Source: Gordonia sp. SID5947
Lineage (GTDB): Bacteria; Actinomycetota; Actinomycetes; Mycobacteriales; Mycobacteriaceae
Assembly: GCF_009862785.1 (NCBI RefSeq)
Contig: NZ_WWHU01000001.1
Coordinates: forward strand, 4,340,001 to 4,404,000
DNA length: 64,000 nt
Reading direction: 5' to 3'
Part shown: piece by piece, positions 51,495 to 62,889 of the stretch
Layout: each line of letters opens with the position of its first letter
Position numbering within the stretch: position 1 is the stretch's first letter
Made by a program: the position numbers and the translations under genes
Notes under the pieces: model-generated
The model's input: the letters and a program-made list of their open reading frames with translations, nothing else
Told to the model about the DNA's origin: nothing
Databases searched by the model: none

Positions 51495-53474
51495 ATGGAC
51501 GTTCGTCAGAGGTCTGGTCGTCGTGTCGGGCTGCGCCCGGCCGTCTTCCTGGTCGTCTCGGGCTTGATGGTGGCATTGTGTGCAGGAACAGGTCCTGCCC
51601 TGGCCGCTCCGGGCGATCCGCCGCCTCCGATGGGTCTCGGTCAGCTGGGGGCGTCGTCGACGATCTCCCTACCCGGTCAGCAGGGCGAGACCAGTCTCAC
51701 CCTGCCCGTCCCGAAGGACCTCACCCCGTCGGTGCTGCGCGGCAACGTGCAGATCCCCGCGTTCGTCACCGGTGGCAGCATCGACGTCCTGCAGGGCGAC
51801 CGGCTGATCTCCCGGACCCCCGTCAGCACCGCACCGAACGCGCCCATCGAACTTCCGCTACGTGGGGTGCGCGTCGAGAAGAACGCCGCGGACATCGTCC
51901 TGCGCGGATATCTGCGCGCAGAGGGGTTCTGCCAGTTCGACGCCGATCACGCGCTGCGCATCACCAACACCTCGGTCGCCTACACCGGGCGTGAGGCGAT
52001 CCCGACGGACGTCGCGGAGTTTCTCCCGCCGGTGCTGCGTGGGCTCACCATCTACATCCCCCAGGACGTGAAATCGGCGGAGGGCGAGGCCGCGGTCAAC
52101 CTGGCGACCGCGGTGGTGTCCAACTACGGGTCCGCGCAGGTGCCGATCGAGACCGTGGCGCTGCCGCGCGGCGCGACACCGCCGACGGTGCCGGGTCCTC
52201 TCGAACGACAGATCGTGATCAACACGGATGCCTCGCCCGGTTTGAGTCTCCACGACAACCGAGGTAGCGCCTACCTCGAGATCGGCGGTTCGTCCGACGA
52301 ACTGGTGACGCAGACGCAGTTCCTGACGTCCAGCCTCGCTCCGATCGCGCTGAGTTCCTCGGCGGTGGCCGGATCTCTCCGGGCCGCGCCGCAGATCGCG
52401 CCGGATGTGACGAACCTTTCCGACCTCGGCGTCTCGGACCAGAGCGTGACCTCGGCGGCCTGGCCGAGTCTCACGGTGGGTATCGACCAGACCCGCTTGG
52501 GCAGGCCGTCCAAGGGGATCCGGGTCCAGCTCACCGGCTCCTACAGCCCCGGCCCGGCCGACGCCGACGGTCTGCTCTCGGTGCGGATCGGGGACCGGGT
52601 GATCTCGACGATCCCCACCGACGAGAGCGGTACCTACGACACCTGGGTCGACGTCCCCGACGAACTGCTGAGCCGGTACACCGAGCTGACGGTGACCCTC
52701 GAGCGAGGGAACCTCGGTGAGAGCTGTGGCACCGGGTATCGCAGCACGTTGAGCCTGAGTTCGGCGGGTGAGGTCCAGACCGAGGAGGCCGATCCGCCAC
52801 AGCCGGGCGGTTTCGGCTCCCTGCCGCAGGCGCTGATGCCGCGGACCCAACTCGCATGGACCAAGGGAGATCCCGCCGACGTGTCCCGGGCGGTGTCGAT
52901 CGCGTCGGGTCTTCAGAAACTGTCGGCCGTACCGCTCGGGCTCGACGTGGTGTCGATGGACGACGCGGGTTCCTCCGATCAGCCGGCGATCCTGATCTCG
53001 TCGGACGGCGGTGGGCTGCCCGATCTGAACCTGCCTCTGCAATCGGACGGCCGCACGCTGAAAGTTGTTTCCGGTTCGGGTGATTCGGAGCAGACGTCGT
53101 CGGTGACCCTCAATCCGGGTGTCAACTTCGGAGCGCTCGAGGTCACCCGCGCGGGTGACCGTAGCCTCCTGGTCGCGACGTCGACGAACGATGCGCGGGA
53201 TCTCGACGGCCTGCTGAGCTGGCTCTCGACCGGAGATCGCTGGTCGTCGGCCGGCGGGGACGCGATCCTCCAGGTGGCCGGTCACGACCCGGTGTCGGTG
53301 GCCTCCGACGAGATGAATGCTGGTCAGCAGCAATCCGATTCGGATGCCGCGGAAGCAGGGTTCGCGATCGCGGGTGTTCTGGTGGCGGCCGTGCTGCTCG
53401 CCGGGCTGGTGGTGCTGGGCACGATCCTGCTGCGCAGGCGACGTCACCGCGGTCCGACCACGCCGACGTCATGA
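51495..53474 (+). CDS. Exported BcsB-like protein of an envelope-glycan synthase cluster
   Basis: 659 residues. A Sec signal (cleavage after GPALA, about residue 37) precedes a large extracytoplasmic region and a C-terminal membrane anchor (AIAGVLVAAVLLAGLVVLGTILL) with a basic tail. The repeated beta-rich modules, including LRGVRVEKNAADIVLRGYLR, RPSKGIRVQLTGSYSPG and VTLERGNLGESCGTGYRSTL, resemble the cellulose synthase subunit BcsB. That protein guides the nascent glycan and anchors beside the synthase. The next three genes overlap, with the GT2 synthase third. aagggg precedes ATG 51495. Assignment rests on domain pattern and context. Confidence 0.72.
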   Translation: MDVRQRSGRRVGLRPAVFLVVSGLMVALCAGTGPALAAPGDPPPPMGLGQLGASSTISLPGQQGETSLTLPVPKDLTPSVLRGNVQIPAFVTGGSIDVLQGDRLISRTPVSTAPNAPIELPLRGVRVEKNAADIVLRGYLRAEGFCQFDADHALRITNTSVAYTGREAIPTDVAEFLPPVLRGLTIYIPQDVKSAEGEAAVNLATAVVSNYGSAQVPIETVALPRGATPPTVPGPLERQIVINTDASPGLSLHDNRGSAYLEIGGSSDELVTQTQFLTSSLAPIALSSSAVAGSLRAAPQIAPDVTNLSDLGVSDQSVTSAAWPSLTVGIDQTRLGRPSKGIRVQLTGSYSPGPADADGLLSVRIGDRVISTIPTDESGTYDTWVDVPDELLSRYTELTVTLERGNLGESCGTGYRSTLSLSSAGEVQTEEADPPQPGGFGSLPQALMPRTQLAWTKGDPADVSRAVSIASGLQKLSAVPLGLDVVSMDDAGSSDQPAILISSDGGGLPDLNLPLQSDGRTLKVVSGSGDSEQTSSVTLNPGVNFGALEVTRAGDRSLLVATSTNDARDLDGLLSWLSTGDRWSSAGGDAILQVAGHDPVSVASDEMNAGQQQSDSDAAEAGFAIAGVLVAAVLLAGLVVLGTILLRRRRHRGPTTPTS

Positions 53475-54991
53475 CCACCGGCACCGCGCCGGCAGCTGCG
53501 GTCCGCGGTCCGGGACTACGTGAGCGTCTCGCACAGAACCCCGGGGTCGTGGTGGCGGTGCGGTGGGGCCTCCTCCTGGCGTCCACGGCCATCGCGTTCT
53601 GGCAGACCCTCGGAGCGGTGGTCGACGAGATGCGCGCCGGCACGATCATCACCTACCTGCCGGCCGCCGTGATCCTCGTCGGAATCGCCGCAGTCGGCAT
53701 ATCCTGGCGCCGCGCAACGGAATTGCCGATCTACGACCGTCAGACCGATGCGATCGTCGGGGTGGTCCTGCTGCTGGTGGCCATCTCGGTGAAGGTGATG
53801 AACCTCCGGTATCCCGATGCGTACCTCACCTCGCACGTCGACCTGCTCGCCCTCTGGGTGTTCCTGCTGGGCGGTGCCTGCATGGTGTTCGGGTTGCGGC
53901 CCGTCGGGCGGTACGGATGGGCGTGGTTGCTGCTGTTGATGATCTTTCCGGTGCCGTACCGGATGATCGTGCTGCCGCTGGGCGGTGACTCGCTCGCCGC
54001 CGGTGTGGTGATGGTCCTGTTCGGTGCGATGGCGACCGGCGTGGCGACCGGACGGACGCGCCGGCGGGGGTTCGCCGGTGCGGCCATCGCGGCGGCGGTC
54101 GGCGTGGCCGCCCTGATCGGGGTGCGGGTGCTGTTCCCGGACGCGGCGCGGATCGTCTACCAGACCGTGCCTGCGGTGGGCGCCGCCCTCGTGGCGAGCG
54201 CCTGGCTCTACGTCGACTATCGACGTCAGCCCCACGAATCCTGGAGTCCCCTCGGCCGATCCATGTACCCGGTGTCGGTGCGCAAGGTAGGGCGTCCCGG
54301 GATCGCGCTGGTCCTGTTCGCGGTCGCGATGTTCTTCATCCCCATCCCGTCCTATGGCGACATACCCAGCGCGCGTGTCGACGGGCTGAACACACGCCCT
54401 CCGATGGCTGTGCCGTCGGGCTGGGTGCAGGGCAGCGTGACTCGCTACGACTGGGTGACCCGTCTCTATGGTCCCGAATCCAGCATGACCGTCCAAGATC
54501 TCTTCCAATCGCAGGGCAGCACCCAGTTCGACAAGTTCGCCCGCCCGCGCAAGGTCCAGGTGAACGCCATCGAGGCTTCGAATCCGTTGCGGTTCGAGGT
54601 CTATCCGGCGATCTTCGTCTACGACCTCGTCGGTGACCGGTTCAGCGACCCGATGCCGGTCGAGCTGCCCCACGGCGTCACCGGCTATCTGCAGACGATC
54701 GTCGACGACGACAGCTACCTGACCTTCAACCGGCTGTACTGGACCTGGACCGACGGACGGCGCACGCAGCGGGTCAATCTGCTGTCGGTCGACAACCACG
54801 AACCCGACGCCGCCTTCCCGTCCCCGGACCTCACCGTGGCACGCAACATGTCGACATTCCTGTCCGTCCTGTTCCGGGGCAACGCGGTCACCATCGACCT
54901 CCAACCTCAGCTCAAGGACCGGGATCTGCTGGTCGGGTGTGCCACCGACCTGATCAACACGCAGGTCGACGCGATCGGGGGAGAATCGTGA
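53471..54991 (+). CDS. Polytopic membrane protein resembling an exosortase fused to an EpsI-like domain
   Basis: 506 residues. The N-terminal about 270 hold some seven membrane spans, including LLLLMIFPVPYRMIVLPLG, a segment typical of exosortases. After a further span comes an about 210-residue extracytoplasmic domain (RYDWVTRLYGPES onward) comparable to EpsI. The Cys-Arg-His centre expected of an active exosortase is not visible: no Cys follows the FPVPYR segment within the membrane part. It may therefore be a non-proteolytic relative serving glycan export. ATGA overlap with the BcsB-like gene and GTGA overlap with the GT2 gene. Family assignment is tentative. Confidence 0.6.
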   Translation: MTTGTAPAAAVRGPGLRERLAQNPGVVVAVRWGLLLASTAIAFWQTLGAVVDEMRAGTIITYLPAAVILVGIAAVGISWRRATELPIYDRQTDAIVGVVLLLVAISVKVMNLRYPDAYLTSHVDLLALWVFLLGGACMVFGLRPVGRYGWAWLLLLMIFPVPYRMIVLPLGGDSLAAGVVMVLFGAMATGVATGRTRRRGFAGAAIAAAVGVAALIGVRVLFPDAARIVYQTVPAVGAALVASAWLYVDYRRQPHESWSPLGRSMYPVSVRKVGRPGIALVLFAVAMFFIPIPSYGDIPSARVDGLNTRPPMAVPSGWVQGSVTRYDWVTRLYGPESSMTVQDLFQSQGSTQFDKFARPRKVQVNAIEASNPLRFEVYPAIFVYDLVGDRFSDPMPVELPHGVTGYLQTIVDDDSYLTFNRLYWTWTDGRRTQRVNLLSVDNHEPDAAFPSPDLTVARNMSTFLSVLFRGNAVTIDLQPQLKDRDLLVGCATDLINTQVDAIGGES

Positions 54992-56505
54992 GAAACGGCG
55001 AGACACGTGGTGTCGACGAGTTGCTGGCCGACCCGGACTACCGTGAGGCCGCACTGTACGACGCCGTGGAACGGCTCCGCGACGAGGACCCGGAGATGAC
55101 CGCGTCGGTGCCGTTCAGCCGCGGGCAGAAGATCATCGGGCTCTCGCTGGTGGTGGTCATCGTCGCGCTCCTGGTGATCTTCCCGATCGCCACCATCGCC
55201 GCCCTGGTGTCGATCGCCACCGTGGTCTACATCCTCGCGCTGGTCGACCGCGTCCTCATCTTCCGGCGCGGGTTGGTCAACGGCGCGATCGTGATCACCG
55301 ACGACGAGGCCATGGCGATCGCCGACGACGATCTGCCGCCCTACACGGTGCTCGTGCCGGCGTACGGGGAGCCGGAGGTGGTGGGCGACCTGATCGCCGC
55401 GATGGAGTCGTTGGAGTACCCACCCGACAAATTGCAGGTGCTGTTGCTGCTGGAGGAAGACGACGCGCCGACGATCGAGGCGGCCCGCGACGTCGGCGAC
55501 AACGATCTGGTGACCGTGGTCCTGGTGCCGCCGGCACAGCCGCGCACGAAACCCAAGGCGTGCAACTACGGGCTGCACTTCTCCACCGGCGACATCGTCA
55601 CCATCTACGATGCCGAGGACCTGCCCGATCCGCTGCAGCTGCGCCGCGTGGTCGCCGCATTCCGTGGTTCGGACGACTCGGTGGTCTGCATTCAGGGCAA
55701 GCTGAACTTCCACAACTCGCGCGACAACGTGCTCACCGAATGGTTCACCGCCGACTACGGGATCTGGTTCAGCTACCTGCTACCCGGCCTGATGGTGAGT
55801 CGCTCGCCGATTCCGTTGGGGGGGACGTCGAACCACTTCATCCGCGCCGTGGTCGACGACATCGGCGCCTGGGATCCGTTCAACGTGACCGAGGATGCGG
55901 ATCTCGGCGTACGGATCGCGGGGCGGGGATACCGCACCGCCGTGCTCGATTCGCTGACGTTGGAGGAGGCCAACGTGGACGCGATCAACTGGGTACGGCA
56001 GCGCTCACGTTGGTACAAGGGCTACATGCAGACGTGGCTGGTACACATGCGCCGTCCGGTCGCACTGTGGCGGATCCTGGGGGCGGTCGGGTGGTATCGG
56101 TTTACGCTCCTCATCGCCGGCACCCCGCTGATCGCGTGCATGAACATGGTCTTCTGGCTGATCATGGTGATCTGGTTCGCAGGGCAGCCGAAGGTGTTCG
56201 CGGACATCTTCCCCGGGCCGATCTACTACCTCTCGCTGGTGTCGCTGATCTTCGGTAACGGTGCCGCCATCTACATGAACCTCATCTCGATCCGGGAGGA
56301 CGGCCGCAGCAAACTCATCTGGTCCGCGCTGATCGTGCCGGCCTACTGGGTCTTGATGAGCATCGCCGCGATCAAGGGGATGTGGCAGATGCTGTTCAAT
56401 CCGTCGTACTGGGAGAAGACCTTTCACGGCCTGTCGACCAGTTCGGAGGAGGCAGGTGACGACGAGGAGGCCGCCGAGCCGTCGACGAGCGCGGGTACCG
56501 CATGA
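54988..56505 (+). CDS. Membrane glycosyltransferase family 2, cellulose-synthase-like
   Basis: 505 residues from GTG 54988. Two N-terminal spans are followed by a cytoplasmic GT2 domain with VLVPAYGEPEVV, the metal-binding YDAEDLPDP, the acceptor-side TEDADLGVR and Q-x2-RW (RQRSRWYKG); C-terminal spans and an acidic tail follow. This order is that of processive synthases such as BcsA, but no PilZ domain is present. It probably polymerises and extrudes a beta-linked glycan with the BcsB-like protein. The sugar cannot be read from the sequence. Confidence 0.85.
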   Translation: MRNGETRGVDELLADPDYREAALYDAVERLRDEDPEMTASVPFSRGQKIIGLSLVVVIVALLVIFPIATIAALVSIATVVYILALVDRVLIFRRGLVNGAIVITDDEAMAIADDDLPPYTVLVPAYGEPEVVGDLIAAMESLEYPPDKLQVLLLLEEDDAPTIEAARDVGDNDLVTVVLVPPAQPRTKPKACNYGLHFSTGDIVTIYDAEDLPDPLQLRRVVAAFRGSDDSVVCIQGKLNFHNSRDNVLTEWFTADYGIWFSYLLPGLMVSRSPIPLGGTSNHFIRAVVDDIGAWDPFNVTEDADLGVRIAGRGYRTAVLDSLTLEEANVDAINWVRQRSRWYKGYMQTWLVHMRRPVALWRILGAVGWYRFTLLIAGTPLIACMNMVFWLIMVIWFAGQPKVFADIFPGPIYYLSLVSLIFGNGAAIYMNLISIREDGRSKLIWSALIVPAYWVLMSIAAIKGMWQMLFNPSYWEKTFHGLSTSSEEAGDDEEAAEPSTSAGTA

Positions 56506-58268
56506 ACCGCCGGCAGATCATCGCGCTGTTCGTGGTGGTGTGGATCCTCTACCTCATCGCCGGGGTGCACCTCGCCACCGAGGTCCGGTTCTTCATGGGG
56601 GACTCCCTGTCCCGCGTGCAGTCCGCCCAGAGCGTGCTGTTCAGCCGCGATCCGCATGTCTCCGCGATCGGCTTCATCTTCACGCCGCTGACGGCTCTCG
56701 CCCAGCTGCCACTGACCGCGCTGACCCCGATCTTCCCGGCGATGACCACCTCGGCGATCTCGGCGGCGATCATGTCGTCGGCGTTCATGGCCGGGTCGGT
56801 GATCCAGGTGTCCGGGATCGCGCGCGATCGTGGTGTGGCGCCGTGGATCTCGATCACCGTGACACTGGCCTACGCACTCAACCCGATGATCGTGTTCTAC
56901 GGCGCCAACGGGATGAGCGAGGCGCCGTATCTGTTCTTCCTCGCGTGGGCGGTCAGGCGCGGTATGCGGTGGAACGACACCGACGACGTCCACGAGTTGG
57001 TCACCGCCGGCATGGCTCTCGGTTTCGCCTACCTGACACGCTATGACGGCGCGGCGGCAGCACTGGCCGGCGGGATCGTCGTCGCCGTCGCATCCTACCG
57101 GCGTTCGCCCAAGGACGACCGGGTGTCCCGGAGTCTCCTCGACATGGGCATCTTCGCACTGCCGAGTGCCGTGGCCTTTGTGGTGTGGGCGATCACGAGC
57201 TGGTTGATCACCGGTAGCTTCTTCGCGCAGGTGGCATCCCAGTACGGCAACACGGCGATCCTGGAGCTGTCGGGCGGCAGCGGATCGTCGAATGCCTTCA
57301 CCGCTCTGAGGTTCTCGCTCGTCGAGGTATTGATCCTCGCACCACTGTTCCCGCTGTTGCTGGCCCTCGTCATCGTCGTCCGGCGGCGCTGGGGGCGCCT
57401 GGCGCCGCTGTTGGCGCCACTGCCGCTGATCGGTGCGGTGCTGTTCTTCCAGATCGTCAGCTATGCCCGGGGTTCCACCTTCGGGTTCCTGCGCTTCTAC
57501 ATCACCGTGGTCCTGCTGGCGGCGGTGGTCGCGCTGATAGCGGTACCGGCGAGCAGATCACAGCCCTTCCGGCGGCTGGGCACGGCCGCCCACATGCCGG
57601 AGGTCGCCGATCGCCGCAAGGAGAAGACTTATGTCGCACTGGGTCTCGTCGCGGTCGTCACCATGCTGGTGGCGGTTCCGGTGACCGCGTACGGCATGAC
57701 CTCGACGAAGTATGCACCCCAGGAGTTCGCGCTCGAGCAAGTGATGTTCCCCGATCCCGATTCGGTGGACCAGAAGGACCTCGACGCCCAGCGGACGATC
57801 CGGTCGTTCTCCACGGAACGGTCCCTGGCCCAGTATCTCGACGCGCTGCATCTCCCGGACGGCAGCGTCCTGTGCGACACCGTGTACGGCTTCGCCGTCA
57901 TCGCGCAGTCGGCGCGTCCCAAACAGTTCGTGATCCCGTCGGACGAAGATTTCGCCGAGGCCGTGAACGACCCCGTGGCGCACCACATCCAGCTGATGCT
58001 CTCGGTGCCGCTGACCGGCCGTGGCGCCTCGGACGCGCTGAACATCCGTTATCCCACGCTCTACGAGAACGGCGGCGGCATCGGGGTGTTGATGGTCGAA
58101 GCGCCCAACCAGGGTGCGGATCTGCCGGACTGGCGCATCTATCGGGTCACGCCCGCCGCAGAGATGACCGAAGCGGAACAGATCAAGGTGGATGAGTCGG
58201 AGAAAGAGGACGCGGAGGAAGCGGCGACATCTTCCGCGGGTGGACCGACACGGGCCGTGACCGGCTGA
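56502..58268 (+). CDS. GT-C-fold membrane glycosyltransferase
   Basis: 588 residues, about ten to twelve spans. The first extracytoplasmic loop has acidic residues (MGDSLSRVQ, FSRDPHVSA) as in GT-C enzymes, which use polyprenyl-phosphate sugars outside the membrane. YALNPMIVFYGANGMSEAPY is characteristic of the mannosyltransferase-like group. An extracytoplasmic C-terminal domain and a Glu/Ala-rich tail follow. It overlaps the GT2 gene by 4 nt. It could decorate or prime the polymer made by the GT2 synthase. Confidence 0.8.
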   Translation: MNRRQIIALFVVVWILYLIAGVHLATEVRFFMGDSLSRVQSAQSVLFSRDPHVSAIGFIFTPLTALAQLPLTALTPIFPAMTTSAISAAIMSSAFMAGSVIQVSGIARDRGVAPWISITVTLAYALNPMIVFYGANGMSEAPYLFFLAWAVRRGMRWNDTDDVHELVTAGMALGFAYLTRYDGAAAALAGGIVVAVASYRRSPKDDRVSRSLLDMGIFALPSAVAFVVWAITSWLITGSFFAQVASQYGNTAILELSGGSGSSNAFTALRFSLVEVLILAPLFPLLLALVIVVRRRWGRLAPLLAPLPLIGAVLFFQIVSYARGSTFGFLRFYITVVLLAAVVALIAVPASRSQPFRRLGTAAHMPEVADRRKEKTYVALGLVAVVTMLVAVPVTAYGMTSTKYAPQEFALEQVMFPDPDSVDQKDLDAQRTIRSFSTERSLAQYLDALHLPDGSVLCDTVYGFAVIAQSARPKQFVIPSDEDFAEAVNDPVAHHIQLMLSVPLTGRGASDALNIRYPTLYENGGGIGVLMVEAPNQGADLPDWRIYRVTPAAEMTEAEQIKVDESEKEDAEEAATSSAGGPTRAVTG

Positions 58269-58275
58269 TCCCGGG

Positions 58276-59394
58276 TCACCCGACCTTCTCGGCGACGACC
58301 TTCCAGGCGGGGTCGTCGGGGCCGATGTCGTATGTGCACTCGTCGGGCCGCGGGTCGGGGACAAAGGCCCAGAGCAATCCACCTGCGGTCCCCGCCGCCC
58401 GCTGTTCGGAGAGCTTGTCGCGGAACTGATCCGCGCGGGTCGCCACCGGCAGACAGGAACCGGCGTTGATACCGATCTCGTTGACCACGATCGGTTTGCC
58501 GAGGCGGCGTGCCTGCTCGATCCGGGTCGGCAGATCGCTGCCCGCCGGACCGTAATCGGTGGGTCCCCCGCCGTAGTCGTGGAAGTCGAGGACGTCGACC
58601 TGCGCCGACGCCCCGACCGTGGCATAGTCGTCGCCTTCGGTCCCGCACTGATCACCACCGATGAGCCCGGCGAAGATCGGACGGGCGGGATCGATGGAAC
58701 GCAGTTGCTCGCCCGCCTCGTCGAAGAACGTCCGCAGTACCGCGGCGCCGCCGCCCGGACATTCGCGCGCCTGCCAGTCGCAGCCGCGGTCGCTGCAGAT
58801 ACTGGCCTCGGGTTCGCCCACCAGTTCCCAGCCCGCGACGGTCGGCCGGCCCTTCCATCGGTTCACGGCGGTGGTCATCCACTCGGCGAAGGTCATGCCG
58901 CCCGATGATTTCTTGGTTCGCCAACCGTCGGCGTACCAGGAACGGTCCTTGAATCTGCCGTCCTCGCAGGCGCCGGTGCTGCCGGTCAGCACGGGAAGGA
59001 TCATCTGTCCGTGGCGGGCGGCGGCGGCGAAGACCGCGTCGAGCGGACCGTAGTCGACCAGTCCCGACGTCTTGTCGACAGCGAACATCGCGAACAGACT
59101 GATGCGGGTCAACGCGCGCGGCGGGAGGGCGGCGAAGTACTTGTCGAGGTCGACCTCGGCTCCACAACCCCGGTTGACCGACCAATCGGTGCCGAGTTGG
59201 TAGGCGTTGAAGCCCGTCGGCCACCAGTCGTGTCCGTCGAGCTGAAGGCCGGTGGGGGTGGTGGTGACGCGGCCGCTGAAATCGTTGTGGTCGCTGGAGC
59301 CGTCGGAAGAACTCGACGTCGAGCATCCGACTGCGACGATCGACGTCGCAACCAGAAGGACGTACAGCCAGGCAACCGTCCGGAGCCGATGCAC
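58276..59394 (-). CDS. Lipoprotein glycoside hydrolase (GH5/mannanase-like)
   Basis: 372 residues from GTG 59394. The signal ends in AVGC (Cys24), predicting a surface lipoprotein. The (beta/alpha)8 hydrolase shows the acid/base Glu in WELVGEPEAS and the nucleophile Glu in VVNEIGIN, the clan GH-A arrangement. It is convergent with the glycan cluster, 7 nt beyond its last gene. Cellulose operons often carry a dedicated glycanase, and this one may trim or release the polymer. A leaderless-type tagtct lies 6 nt before its start. Confidence 0.8.
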   Translation of the reverse strand: MHRLRTVAWLYVLLVATSIVAVGCSTSSSSDGSSDHNDFSGRVTTTPTGLQLDGHDWWPTGFNAYQLGTDWSVNRGCGAEVDLDKYFAALPPRALTRISLFAMFAVDKTSGLVDYGPLDAVFAAAARHGQMILPVLTGSTGACEDGRFKDRSWYADGWRTKKSSGGMTFAEWMTTAVNRWKGRPTVAGWELVGEPEASICSDRGCDWQARECPGGGAAVLRTFFDEAGEQLRSIDPARPIFAGLIGGDQCGTEGDDYATVGASAQVDVLDFHDYGGGPTDYGPAGSDLPTRIEQARRLGKPIVVNEIGINAGSCLPVATRADQFRDKLSEQRAAGTAGGLLWAFVPDPRPDECTYDIGPDDPAWKVVAEKVG

Positions 59395-59956: not shown

Positions 59957-60832
59957 TCAGCGCGTCGCGAACGTGCGCCGGTGGCCGGCCCAGCGGCAGA
60001 CCACATAGATCACGAACGAGATCGTGGTCACGAACACCGAGACAGGTAGGCCCGGCGCCAGCGACAAGATCAAGCCGCCCACCGCGGCGATCTCCGCGAA
60101 CACCACCGACAACACGATCACCGTCGTCGGGTTCGCGGTGAGTCGGGCGGCGGCCGCAGCCGGTGTGATCAGCAACGACATCACCAACAGGGCGCCGATG
60201 ATCTGGACGCCCTGGGCGCACGCGAGACCCATCAGCACGGCGAAGACCACCGACAGGGTCCGGACCGGAACCCCGTGCGCGAGGGCGACACGCGGATCGA
60301 GCGACGCGAACAACAGTGGCCGGTAGATCACCGCCATGCCGATCACCACGATGACGGTCGTGATCGCGACCGCAGTCAGACCACCGGTGCCCACGCTGAC
60401 GACCTGTCCGGTGAGCATCGCGAATCCGGTTCGCGCACTGCCGTAGAGGGACAGGAAGAGCACGCCGAGGCCGAGACCGAAGGCCATCACCACACCGATC
60501 ACCGAATCCCGCTCGCGCGCCCGGTTTCCCATGAATCCGAACACTGCCGCGACTACGACCGCGCCGATCACACCACCGACGTTGATGCTGATGCCGAGCA
60601 GAAGGGCGGCCGAAGCCCCGGTCACCGACAACTCGCTGATGCCATGGACGGCGAAGGACATCTGCCGGGCCACGATGAGGGGACCGAGGATGCCGCCGAG
60701 CAGACCCAGCAGCGCGACCGCGATGAGCGATTGCTGGACGAAGCCACGCCCGAGGAGTTCGGCCGTCTCGCCGAGATCCCAGAGTCTGCTGATCTGTATC
60801 TCCGCGGCCGCCTGCGGGATTGCGACGGTCAT
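59957..60832 (-). CDS. znuB: Zinc ABC transporter permease (ZnuB family)
   Basis: ABC-3 family metal permease of 291 residues with about eight spans, including AVHGISELSVTGASAALLLG and the GVQIIGALLVMSLLITPAAAA segment. It forms the channel of a zinc (or manganese) importer with the ATPase and binding protein upstream. ATG 60832 overlaps the ATPase stop (ATGA). Confidence 0.87.
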   Translation of the reverse strand: MTVAIPQAAAEIQISRLWDLGETAELLGRGFVQQSLIAVALLGLLGGILGPLIVARQMSFAVHGISELSVTGASAALLLGISINVGGVIGAVVVAAVFGFMGNRARERDSVIGVVMAFGLGLGVLFLSLYGSARTGFAMLTGQVVSVGTGGLTAVAITTVIVVIGMAVIYRPLLFASLDPRVALAHGVPVRTLSVVFAVLMGLACAQGVQIIGALLVMSLLITPAAAAARLTANPTTVIVLSVVFAEIAAVGGLILSLAPGLPVSVFVTTISFVIYVVCRWAGHRRTFATR

Positions 60833-61713
60833 GTGAGGCCGGACCGCCCTCCGTCGTCGCCCGGTTGGACGCCGGCCGTCGGTGGCTCGGGCCGATGCTC
60901 GCAGTGGTGAGCGTCCTCGCCGCCGATCACCAGCAGCCGTCCGTTGACGCGCAACACCTCGACGTCACTTCCGTACAGGTTCGAGAGGGTTTCGGTGGTC
61001 ATCACCTCGTCGGGCGTGCCGATGCGGAAGTGTCCACCGACCAGGTAGAGCACCCGATCGACGTAGGGGAGGATCGGGTTGATCTCGTGAGTCACGAACA
61101 CGATGGCGGTGTCGGCGTTGCGACGGCGTTCGTCGATGAGTTCGACGACGAGCTGCTGGTTGGTCGGGTCCAGGCTCGACAGCGGTTCGTCGCAGAGCAG
61201 CAACGCCGGATCGCCGGTGAGCGACTGGGCGACCCGCAGCCGTTGTTGTTCGCCACCGGACAGCAGGCCCATCGGGGCATCGGCGTAGGCGGTGGCCCCC
61301 ACCTCCGCCAGCGCTGCGTCCACGAGCCGCTTACGGCGCGCTCGACCACGGAGCCCGATACCCCAGCGGCCGCCGTCGACGCCGAAGCCGACGAGGTCGC
61401 GGCCACGCATGGCCATCGGATCGGAGTCGTCGGCGTGCTGCTGCGGGATGTATCCGATCGCGTCCGTGACGTCGAGGTGGCCCGAGTCGAGCGGGTACTG
61501 ACCCAGGAGGCAACGTAGAAACGAGGTCTTGCCGGAACCGTTCGGACCGAGCACCGCGATGAACTCGCCGCGCGCGATGCGCAGATTCAGGTCGTCCCAG
61601 AGAACCCGCGTCCCGAAGGCCAGTCGTCCGTGCTCGAAGGTCGCCACCGCGCCCGGCCCGGCGGCGGTCGTCCGGGCGGCCGCCGGGGTGGCGCTGTGGT
61701 CGGGATCAGCCAT
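60829..61713 (-). CDS. znuC: Zinc ABC transporter ATPase (ZnuC family)
   Basis: About 294 residues. Walker A GPNGSGKTS, Q-loop IPQQHADD, signature LSGGEQQRLRVAQ, Walker B LLLCDEPLSSLD and H-loop FVTHEIN are present. ATG 61713 lies 4 nt after the znuA stop; ATG 61731 inside znuA is an in-frame alternative. It energises the metal importer. Confidence 0.87.
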   Translation of the reverse strand: MADPDHSATPAAARTTAAGPGAVATFEHGRLAFGTRVLWDDLNLRIARGEFIAVLGPNGSGKTSFLRCLLGQYPLDSGHLDVTDAIGYIPQQHADDSDPMAMRGRDLVGFGVDGGRWGIGLRGRARRKRLVDAALAEVGATAYADAPMGLLSGGEQQRLRVAQSLTGDPALLLCDEPLSSLDPTNQQLVVELIDERRRNADTAIVFVTHEINPILPYVDRVLYLVGGHFRIGTPDEVMTTETLSNLYGSDVEVLRVNGRLLVIGGEDAHHCEHRPEPPTAGVQPGDDGGRSGLT

Positions 61714-61717
61714 GGTG

Positions 61718-62647
61718 TCAGTGTGCGGCATGGTCACCCAGGGCGGCGCTCAACGCCTGGATCTGTCCGGACTGCCACGCGATGTAGTCGGTGACGCCGT
61801 CGGGCAGGGTCTCGGTGAACTTCACCACCGGGACACCCGACTTCTGGGCGGACGCCAGCACGCTCTCGGTGACCGAATCGACCGCCTGCGTGTTGTAGAC
61901 GAGGGCATGGACGGTGCGAGACGAGAGCAGATCCTCCATGGCGGCCCGGTCTGCGGCCGATGGGGACTGCCCCTCCTCCACCGATTGGGTGAAACCGGCG
62001 GGCGCCACGTCGATGAGTCCGGCCTCGTCGAGCAGATAGCCGGCCAGCGGTTCGGTCTGCGCGACCTTGGTCCCGTCGTGAGCCGCCTTGATGTCGGCCA
62101 ACTGCCCACGCAGACCGGTGATCTTCTCGTTGAAGGCCTTCGCGTTGGTGCGGAATGTCTCGGCGTTGGCGGGGTCCTTGTCCGCCAACGCGTCGCCGAC
62201 CTCCGTCGCGACCTCCCCGACGACGGCCAGGTCGTAGAAGACGTGCTCGTTCATGTCACCGTGATCGTGACCGTCGCCGGCGTCGTGTCCCTCGCCGGCC
62301 AGCAGGTCGAAGGCGTTGATCGCGGTCGCCTCCGAGCCCTTGATGGCGTCCTCCATGTAGGCGTCGTAGTGGCCGCCGTTCAACACGACGACATCGGCGT
62401 CGGTGACCTCGGCGGTGTCGGCGGCGGAGGCCTCGAACTCGTGGGGATCACCTTCGGAGTTGGTGTACAGCGAGGTCACGGTGGCCTTGTCGCCTGCCAC
62501 CGCCGACGCCACGGAACTCCACACGTTGGTCGAGGTGACCACCGTCGGCGTGCCGGAGTCGGTGCCGTCGTCGGTACCCGAGCACCCGGCCAGGGCCATG
62601 GCCCCCGCTCCGAGCAGGGCAACAGTTGCAGCCAGTGTTCGCCTCAT
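61718..62647 (-). CDS. znuA: Zinc-binding lipoprotein (ZnuA family)
   Basis: Cluster A-I metal-binding protein of 309 residues from ATG 62647. Lipobox LAGC, lipidated Cys22. The metal-site histidines include DPHEFEAS and the DMNEHVFYD segment, preceded by a His/Asp-rich loop (GHDAGDGHDHGD) typical of zinc rather than manganese binders. First gene of znuABC, with gaggcggag upstream of the start and a Zur-like site in its promoter. Confidence 0.9.
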   Translation of the reverse strand: MRRTLAATVALLGAGAMALAGCSGTDDGTDSGTPTVVTSTNVWSSVASAVAGDKATVTSLYTNSEGDPHEFEASAADTAEVTDADVVVLNGGHYDAYMEDAIKGSEATAINAFDLLAGEGHDAGDGHDHGDMNEHVFYDLAVVGEVATEVGDALADKDPANAETFRTNAKAFNEKITGLRGQLADIKAAHDGTKVAQTEPLAGYLLDEAGLIDVAPAGFTQSVEEGQSPSAADRAAMEDLLSSRTVHALVYNTQAVDSVTESVLASAQKSGVPVVKFTETLPDGVTDYIAWQSGQIQALSAALGDHAAH

Positions 62648-62669
62648 CGTGTTCTCCGCCTCACGCAAA

Positions 62670-62696
62670 TGACAATCGTTACCGAAAGGAGTGTAG
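62670..62696 (-). promoter_or_regulatory. znuA promoter with Zur-like operator
   Basis: On the minus strand tacact (62696-62691) is a good -10, and cggtaacgattgtca (62684-62670) follows it at the expected start of transcription. The latter is an imperfect palindrome similar to zinc-uptake-regulator boxes. Assignment is by resemblance and context. Confidence 0.5.
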
Positions 62697-62889
62697 GGGA
62701 GTCCCCGTGCGAGCGGCGAATCGGACCGGCCACACGGGCTCGCGACACCGATAGCCATCAATTCAATCGTGTACTATCGATATCGCCCTGACGGGAAGCG
62801 CGGTGACTACCCTCGGGTCGTGGGGCACCGGACATGAGGAGCAGCGAAATGGGTCGGCGTATCCACACGATGCGGCGCGGCGGTGCCGC

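Follow-up and report, generated by a model that had tools for sequence, protein, structure and literature searches.

The window analysed here, a stretch of 64,000 nucleotides (nt) from Gordonia sp. SID5947 (NCBI RefSeq assembly GCF_009862785.1, contig NZ_WWHU01000001.1, positions 4,340,001 to 4,404,000 of the forward strand), carries four overlapping genes (genes 1 to 4) and a convergent GH5-like neighbour (gene 5) which, with a probability of about one half, encode together a machine that polymerises, exports, decorates and trims a surface polysaccharide, probably of the β-mannan type, and that includes an exosortase relative without an active site. The features on which the argument draws are the following, with positions counted from the first letter of the window.

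51495..53474, + strand: gene 1, exported BcsB-like protein, 659 amino acids
53346..53444, + strand: C-terminal helix of gene 1, residues 618-650, with Arg647 and Arg649 nearly invariant
53471..54991, + strand: gene 2, 506 amino acids, degenerate exosortase with a multi-helix membrane part and a fused soluble domain
53981..53986, + strand: Gly171-Gly172 of gene 2, the stretch aligned to the catalytic Cys of intact relatives
54380..54970, + strand: C-terminal soluble domain of gene 2 (residues 304-500, approximately), which aligns with that of intact exosortases
54988..56505, + strand: gene 3, processive-type GT2, membrane-embedded, without PilZ, 505 amino acids, start codon GTG
55609..55620, + strand: DAED motif of gene 3, residues 208-211, invariant in 35/35 sequences
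55888..55896, + strand: TED motif of gene 3, residues 301-303, invariant in 35/35
55999..56013, + strand: QRSRW motif of gene 3, residues 338-342, invariant in 35/35
56502..58268, + strand: gene 4, probable GT-C, a transferase dependent on a polyprenyl-phosphate sugar, 588 amino acids
58276..59394, - strand: gene 5, GH5-like exported hydrolase, convergent with gene 4, 372 amino acids
58813..58815, - strand: Glu194 of gene 5, presumed acid/base, invariant in 24/24 and aligned to PDB mannanases
58477..58479, - strand: Glu306 of gene 5, presumed nucleophile, invariant in 24/24 and aligned to PDB mannanases

A conserved set of four genes and a linked fifth

The four open reading frames between 51495 and 58268 all lie on the + strand, and the junction letters (ATGA at 53471 for genes 1/2, GTGA at 54988 for genes 2/3, and ATGA at 56502 for genes 3/4) imply that each of the three overlaps is exactly 4 nt, in agreement with the initial annotation of this DNA; the gap between gene 4 and the convergent gene 5 is 7 nt. 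In a pattern scan of GTDB species genomes, relatives of gene 2 were encoded in 152 stretches; 79 loci were obtained from the best 80 of these, and since the loci were picked by gene 2, the co-occurrence test bears on the other genes. The complete set of four was found in 75 of the 79 loci, the four misses being loci of 4.7-12.3 kb, and in every one of the 65 uncut loci, defined as those of at least 21 kb. In 61/79 loci the genes follow one another as 1-2-3-4 on a single strand, and in the other 14 four-gene loci (seven from Rhodococcus, three from Prescottella, three from mycobacteria, and one from Gordonia) the genes lie nearby with a changed order or a split gene. The grouping is, therefore, not a product of chance, and the conserved four-gene actinobacterial set that had been proposed extends beyond this strain; the proposal overlooked, nevertheless, the linked fifth gene at 58276-59394 (- strand), which is part of the set outside the mycobacteria. 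This GH5-like gene occurs in 50/79 loci and in 47/47 uncut non-mycobacterial ones, either upstream or downstream of the set, the 47 including two loci with doubtful labels, L034 and L035. L034 is labelled Kitasatospora, yet identity places it among Williamsia, and L035 is flagged UNVERIFIED_CONTAM; both are possibly mislabelled contigs. Gene 5 was not found in L068, the single uncut locus from an unassigned metagenome-assembled genome.

The genera carrying the set are Gordonia, Millisia, Williamsia, Rhodococcus, Prescottella, Nocardia, Antrihabitans, Mycobacterium, and Mycolicibacterium. Of the named loci, that of G. hankookensis is the nearest (81% in gene 2), and M. neoaurum ATCC 25795 also carries the locus (L081). 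The set is not universal, gene 2 being present in 12 of 25 Gordonia genomes, in one of them in two pieces, and among 150 genomes of the order profile matches were obtained for gene 2 in 12, for gene 1 in 13, and for gene 5 in 11, with the qualification that the gene 2 profile also picks up intact exosortases. The ratios of nonsynonymous to synonymous substitution rates (dN/dS) against two Gordonia loci, calculated with a Nei-Gojobori script, range from 0.12 to 0.29 across the five genes, all of which are under purifying selection; the values for gene 2, 0.16 and 0.28, indicate that the degenerate exosortase is kept and is not decaying.

Variants and neighbours of the set were also observed. 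Two family genomes hold a second, diverged version in the order gene 2, 3, 1, 4 (L113 12301-18914 and L117 6115-12726), five mycobacterial loci (L058, L075, L090, L094, and L097) have a second gene 2 copy near the set, and what looks like a broken copy, with fragments of genes 1-3 spread over several frames, lies at L124 7179-10342 (genome G090). Gene 1 homologues occur in L110, L111, L112, L114, L115, and L116 with genes 2-4 undetected within the 17-kb stretch. In mycobacterial loci (L051, L095, L064, and others) the set often adjoins ribosomal protein genes, presumably rpsC and rplP, and precedes another gene, which we take to encode an arylsulfatase. Beyond gene 5, a zinc-type ABC transporter (permease, ATPase, and binding protein) lies at 59957-62761, and it is found near the set in 12 Gordonia loci too.

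Gene 2 and its intact exosortase relatives

The gene 2 product of this genome matches no credible family in Pfam or NCBIfam, and its AlphaFold2 model has a predicted local distance difference test score (pLDDT) of 86.3. Among its relatives, 6/56 in one set and 1/35 in another touch the Pfam exosortase profile (best 6e-6 and 2.8e-6, respectively); the match in L070 aligns residues 25-155 to positions 2-120 of the 254 in the profile, that is, to the first half only, and in this genome there are no matches to PF09721 (exosortase) over the cut-off. The gene 2 profile finds four intact exosortases in other genomes (4e-28 to 5e-22 for three of them, 1.5e-15 for the other), and smaller searches with it gave two further ones at 4e-33 and 2e-6. 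The IHDRxxD motif of gene 2 is common to four of these six intact relatives, and the C-terminal domain can be aligned too. Judged by these alignments, gene 2 is an exosortase by descent, with an ancestry common to that of the exosortases.

The six intact relatives are encoded in other Actinomycetota (loci L122, L125, L135, L121, L100, and L120; genomes G261, G356, G482, G029, and G126) and display Cys followed by [SA]G, NxxR, and H. Five of them reach 59-88 bits over the whole Pfam exosortase profile and the remaining one, from G126, 40.9; three of the six were compared with NCBIfam and attain its general exosortase/archaeosortase signature, with none of its exosortase subtypes at cut-off. When 85 gene 2 copies (84 of more than 450 amino acids from the loci, plus that of the window) were aligned with these six proteins, the Cys column, occupied by Cys in 6/6 intact relatives, contained Gly in 82/85 copies and Cys in none; the Arg column contained Arg in 6/6 intact relatives and 0/85 copies, the uncertain His column His in 6/6 and 7/85, and a Cys of the C-terminal domain was likewise present in 6/6 and 0/85. 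As the alignment is gapped around Cys and His, the residue facing each catalytic position is unsure, but the loss of the conserved Cys is sure despite the gaps, and the gene 2 alignment of 35 rows has no conserved Cys column, at most six rows sharing a Cys in any one column. Lacking the Cys-Arg-His site, the Mycobacteriales copies would not work as exosortases; of the earlier designation of gene 2 as exosortase/EpsI-like, the descent is upheld through remote relatives and the working enzyme is not.

Five of the six intact loci encode proteins ending in a VPEVPxAxLLPL-like tail, a membrane helix, and Arg residues, whereas no CTERM-tailed protein is encoded at L120; the intact exosortases accompanied by this tail represent an exosortase type of Actinomycetota. 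A profile built from nine tails of the five genomes with the intact form matched all five of them at E≤0.01, which for one or more matches in each is by construction, since the seeds came from those genomes; the extra matches in G261 (20 in all), G482, and G029 lie beyond construction. The same profile, covering the VPEVP-type tail while other types were not searched, gave no match in the six genomes with the degenerate form, this one included, nor in G394, whose slot-2 protein is unassigned and whose marginal exosortase is unrelated. In L100, L125, and L135, the CTERM gene directly precedes the exosortase gene, in the slot that gene 1 occupies in Gordonia. GT2 and GT-C genes stand beside the intact exosortase in two of the six loci (L122 and L135), and L122 has two GH5-like genes as well.

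The invariance of Asp89, Arg90, Asp93, Arg143, Arg147, His443, and Lys482 in 35/35 gene 2 sequences, together with the purifying selection, could alternatively reflect an enzyme still active through a new site replacing the exosortase triad, acting, for example, on the glycan or on another protein. This possibility is considered unlikely: the IHDRxxD motif, being shared with intact relatives, need not be a new site, and no solved fold matched the whole protein.

The synthase, its partners and the nature of the polymer

Although gene 1 scores weakly against the BcsB family (12.1 bits, cut-off 21), its predicted model displays the BcsB fold over the full length, with an N-terminal hydrophobic segment, two beta-sandwich plus alpha/beta units, a C-terminal membrane helix, and an Arg cluster, and its product is predicted to be a partner with a BcsB fold, as its BcsB-like label had suggested. 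Gene 3 matches PF13641 with 99.1 bits and has the D, DxD, TED, and QxxRW motifs of cellulose-synthase-type GT2 enzymes, so that the DAED, TED, and QRSRW motifs noted before are both present and unchanged in all 35 aligned sequences. BcsA chains come first when its profile is compared with the PDB (best 3.2e-16), and its best NCBIfam model is CelA (51.9 bits, cut-off 699.1), compared with 40.8 bits for PgaC.

In the tree of GT2 sequences (34 rows), those accompanied by BcsB and a degenerate exosortase form one side of a branch (support 99/97), inside an exosortase-linked clade (100/98) that also includes L123 and two rows with an intact exosortase. In L123 the triad is lost, perhaps independently, with BcsB undetected; L134 was counted in the BcsB/degenerate group by its BcsB and gene order, its slot-2 protein not being shown as an exosortase relative. 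Regarding regulation, gene 3 has no PilZ match at E≤1, as had been claimed, and neither PilZ nor GGDEF had a match in the whole genome, while 5 and 8 of 14 controls gave matches; control by cyclic di-GMP (c-di-GMP) in the usual way is, therefore, even less likely than had been supposed. Several GT2 relatives outside the exosortase-linked clade bear extra N-terminal sequence, which in the enzyme of Geobacillus (L130 7305-9197, on a plasmid typed as conjugative) is an MshE-type c-di-GMP-binding domain, an extension that gene 3 lacks.

Gene 4 is likely a GT-C: Asp34 is invariant in 34/34 sequences, the homologue in L134 reaches 27.9 bits to PMT_2 (PF13231), and the presence of a GT-C-like gene in the conserved set is supported. 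GT2/GT-C pairs with no detected BcsB occur in several Actinomycetota (GT-C in 7/16 loci, BcsB in 1/16) and might suggest that both enzymes assemble not an exported polymer but a lipid-linked oligosaccharide with which proteins or lipids are glycosylated, the BcsB-like protein being a mere carbohydrate-binding surface protein. Such a function appears very improbable in view of the QRSRW and TED motifs and the membrane helices, as in processive synthases, and of the BcsB-like gene in all of the uncut loci.

With respect to the sugar, 13 PDB sequences match the gene 5 profile (A4) at E≤0.1, with 1.3e-11 as the best value; one is called Man5A, and the names of the other 12 read mannanase or mannan mannosidase. 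On a Hyphomicrobiales plasmid (L132), a GH113 gene lies two genes from a GT2 relative, and its seven PDB matches are all β-mannanases, while the Geobacillus cluster contains, in this order, a probable mannose-1-phosphate guanylyltransferase, BcsB, GT2, and GT39. These relationships make mannan or glucomannan the better bet for the polymer.

Several observations weigh against the proposed machine. The nearest PDB and NCBIfam relatives of the GT2 are cellulose synthases, and gene 4 itself stays under the PMT_2 cut-off (23.1 bits, cut-off 26.1). A search of the PDB with the gene 5 sequence alone gives weak matches (3ziz mannanase 0.011, endocellulase E1 second at 0.02, and a mannanase at 0.49); the Pfam Cellulase/GH5 family (PF00150) is matched by 7/24 gene 5 relatives (best 2.8e-5) and not by this copy. 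In GH5 β-mannanases Asn precedes the acid/base Glu, as in the four PDB mannanases shown, whereas this residue is Gly in 24/24 gene 5 sequences. The Geobacillus guanylyltransferase scores 241 bits against TIGR01479, under the cut-off of 373, and the GH26 beside an intact exosortase (L121 4673-5863) is nearest to endoglucanase H, which we take to be a lichenase, and not to a mannanase. As to the composition of the set, gene 5 is absent from the 17 uncut mycobacterial loci; no GT2 or GT-C match was found near the intact exosortase in L100, L120, L121, and L125 (loci of 3.8-10.4 kb); comparison of the gene 2 profile with a narrow exosortase set was without success; and five of the 13 genomes with a gene 1 homologue show no gene 2 at E≤1e-10, so that gene 2 is not strictly tied to BcsB, although a second cluster with a divergent gene 2 exists in one of the five, G309.

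Part of this evidence would suit a polymer of cellulose or another β-glucan, the locus being then the cellulose synthase of these Mycobacteriales with UDP-glucose as the donor. The BcsB fold predicted for gene 1, the BcsA chains heading the PDB list of the GT2, the lead of CelA over PgaC, the second place of endocellulase E1, and the endoglucanase H-like GH26 of L121 all agree with this explanation. So does the locus of M. neoaurum, since two reviews name this species, with M. cosmeticum, among some mycobacteria that carry putative components of a cellulose synthase (PMC6364259, PMC7952908); the UniProt entries given there for M. neoaurum may correspond to genes of this locus. Nevertheless, mannan is favoured by the gene 5 profile and by the GH113 of L132, an enzyme that probably forms GDP-mannose comes first in the Geobacillus relative, and the CelA score is far under the 699-bit cut-off; the cellulose explanation is regarded as a doubtful one.

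Proposed mechanism, known systems and significance

In the β-mannan machine proposed here, the GT2 would take a nucleotide sugar, likely GDP-mannose, from the cytoplasm and pass the growing chain across the membrane in a channel of its own, in the manner of BcsA, to be received outside by the BcsB-like protein. The dead exosortase would no longer cut protein tails and might instead keep the subunits assembled, in the simplest case by binding to the membrane helix of the BcsB-like protein, whose gene occupies the slot of the CTERM-protein gene in three intact relatives; this putative scaffold role and the grip on the helix are inferred from gene position and descent only. The GT-C would decorate the chain with side sugars delivered on a polyprenyl carrier, the GH5-like protein would trim or release chains, and the machine would have no need of a c-di-GMP input. 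A bolder version is more speculative and seems improbable as a whole, namely that in mycolic-acid bacteria the dead exosortase became a fixed non-catalytic subunit gripping the anchor of a BcsB-type protein that replaced the former cargo, forming a c-di-GMP-free β-mannan synthase, which would at the same time be the system for a cellulose-like polymer that has long been missing in non-tuberculous mycobacteria and rhodococci.

The set resembles the BcsA-BcsB cellulose synthase in its GT2 with D,D,TED,QxxRW and in a BcsB-fold partner from nearby genes, but it lacks PilZ, adds a degenerate exosortase and a GT-C, and has a hydrolase whose profile is mannanase-like. With the exosortase/PEP-CTERM system (EpsH), as described in part of PMC1569441, it shares the descent of gene 2 and the link to polysaccharide genes, whereas gene 2 has neither the Cys nor the Arg in 85/85 copies and the genome has no match to the VPEVP-type CTERM tail. 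The XrtG systems of Gram-positive bacteria (TIGR03110/TIGR03111), according to a passage of PMC12854382, also place an exosortase gene beside glycosyltransferase genes, although the Gordonia GT2 reaches only 25.3 bits to TIGR03111 (cut-off 363.95) and no active exosortase is present. In the clostridial ccsZABHI cluster, from the relevant part of PMC7710045, a GT2, a membrane-anchored carbohydrate-binding partner, and a GH5 are found as in Gordonia, but CcsA has PilZ, CcsB is no BcsB homologue, and CcsH/I are acyltransferases. The same source argues, in the passage concerned, that a BcsA/BcsB-like pair of C. difficile with a GH113 makes a polymer rich in N-acetylmannosamine (ManNAc); this combination of BcsB, GT2, and mannanase-type hydrolase is close to the Gordonia set, with an epimerase and a deacetylase in addition and with an exosortase relative and a GT-C unmentioned in that passage (PMC7710045). 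Finally, the plasmid cluster of Geobacillus stearothermophilus (CP128455.1) has consecutive genes for BcsB, GT2 (45.5% identity over 76%), and GT39, and differs in the guanylyltransferase at its head, the MshE-type domain of its GT2, and the lack of a gene 2 match.

Among the matches listed in the literature search, no title or abstract opening dealt with this locus or with an inactive exosortase. According to papers on mycobacterial biofilms, M. tuberculosis seems to encode neither BcsA nor BcsB (PMC6364259, PMC7952908), and the genes behind the cellulose-like polymer of the mycobacterial biofilm matrix are stated as not identified (PMC6364259, PMC7952908, PMC12167362). The locus provides genes that can be put to the test in Gordonia, Rhodococcus, Nocardia, and some non-tuberculous mycobacteria, and argues for testing mannan besides cellulose, while gene 2 is an example of how an enzyme of protein sorting has likely become a structural component of a machinery that exports a sugar polymer.

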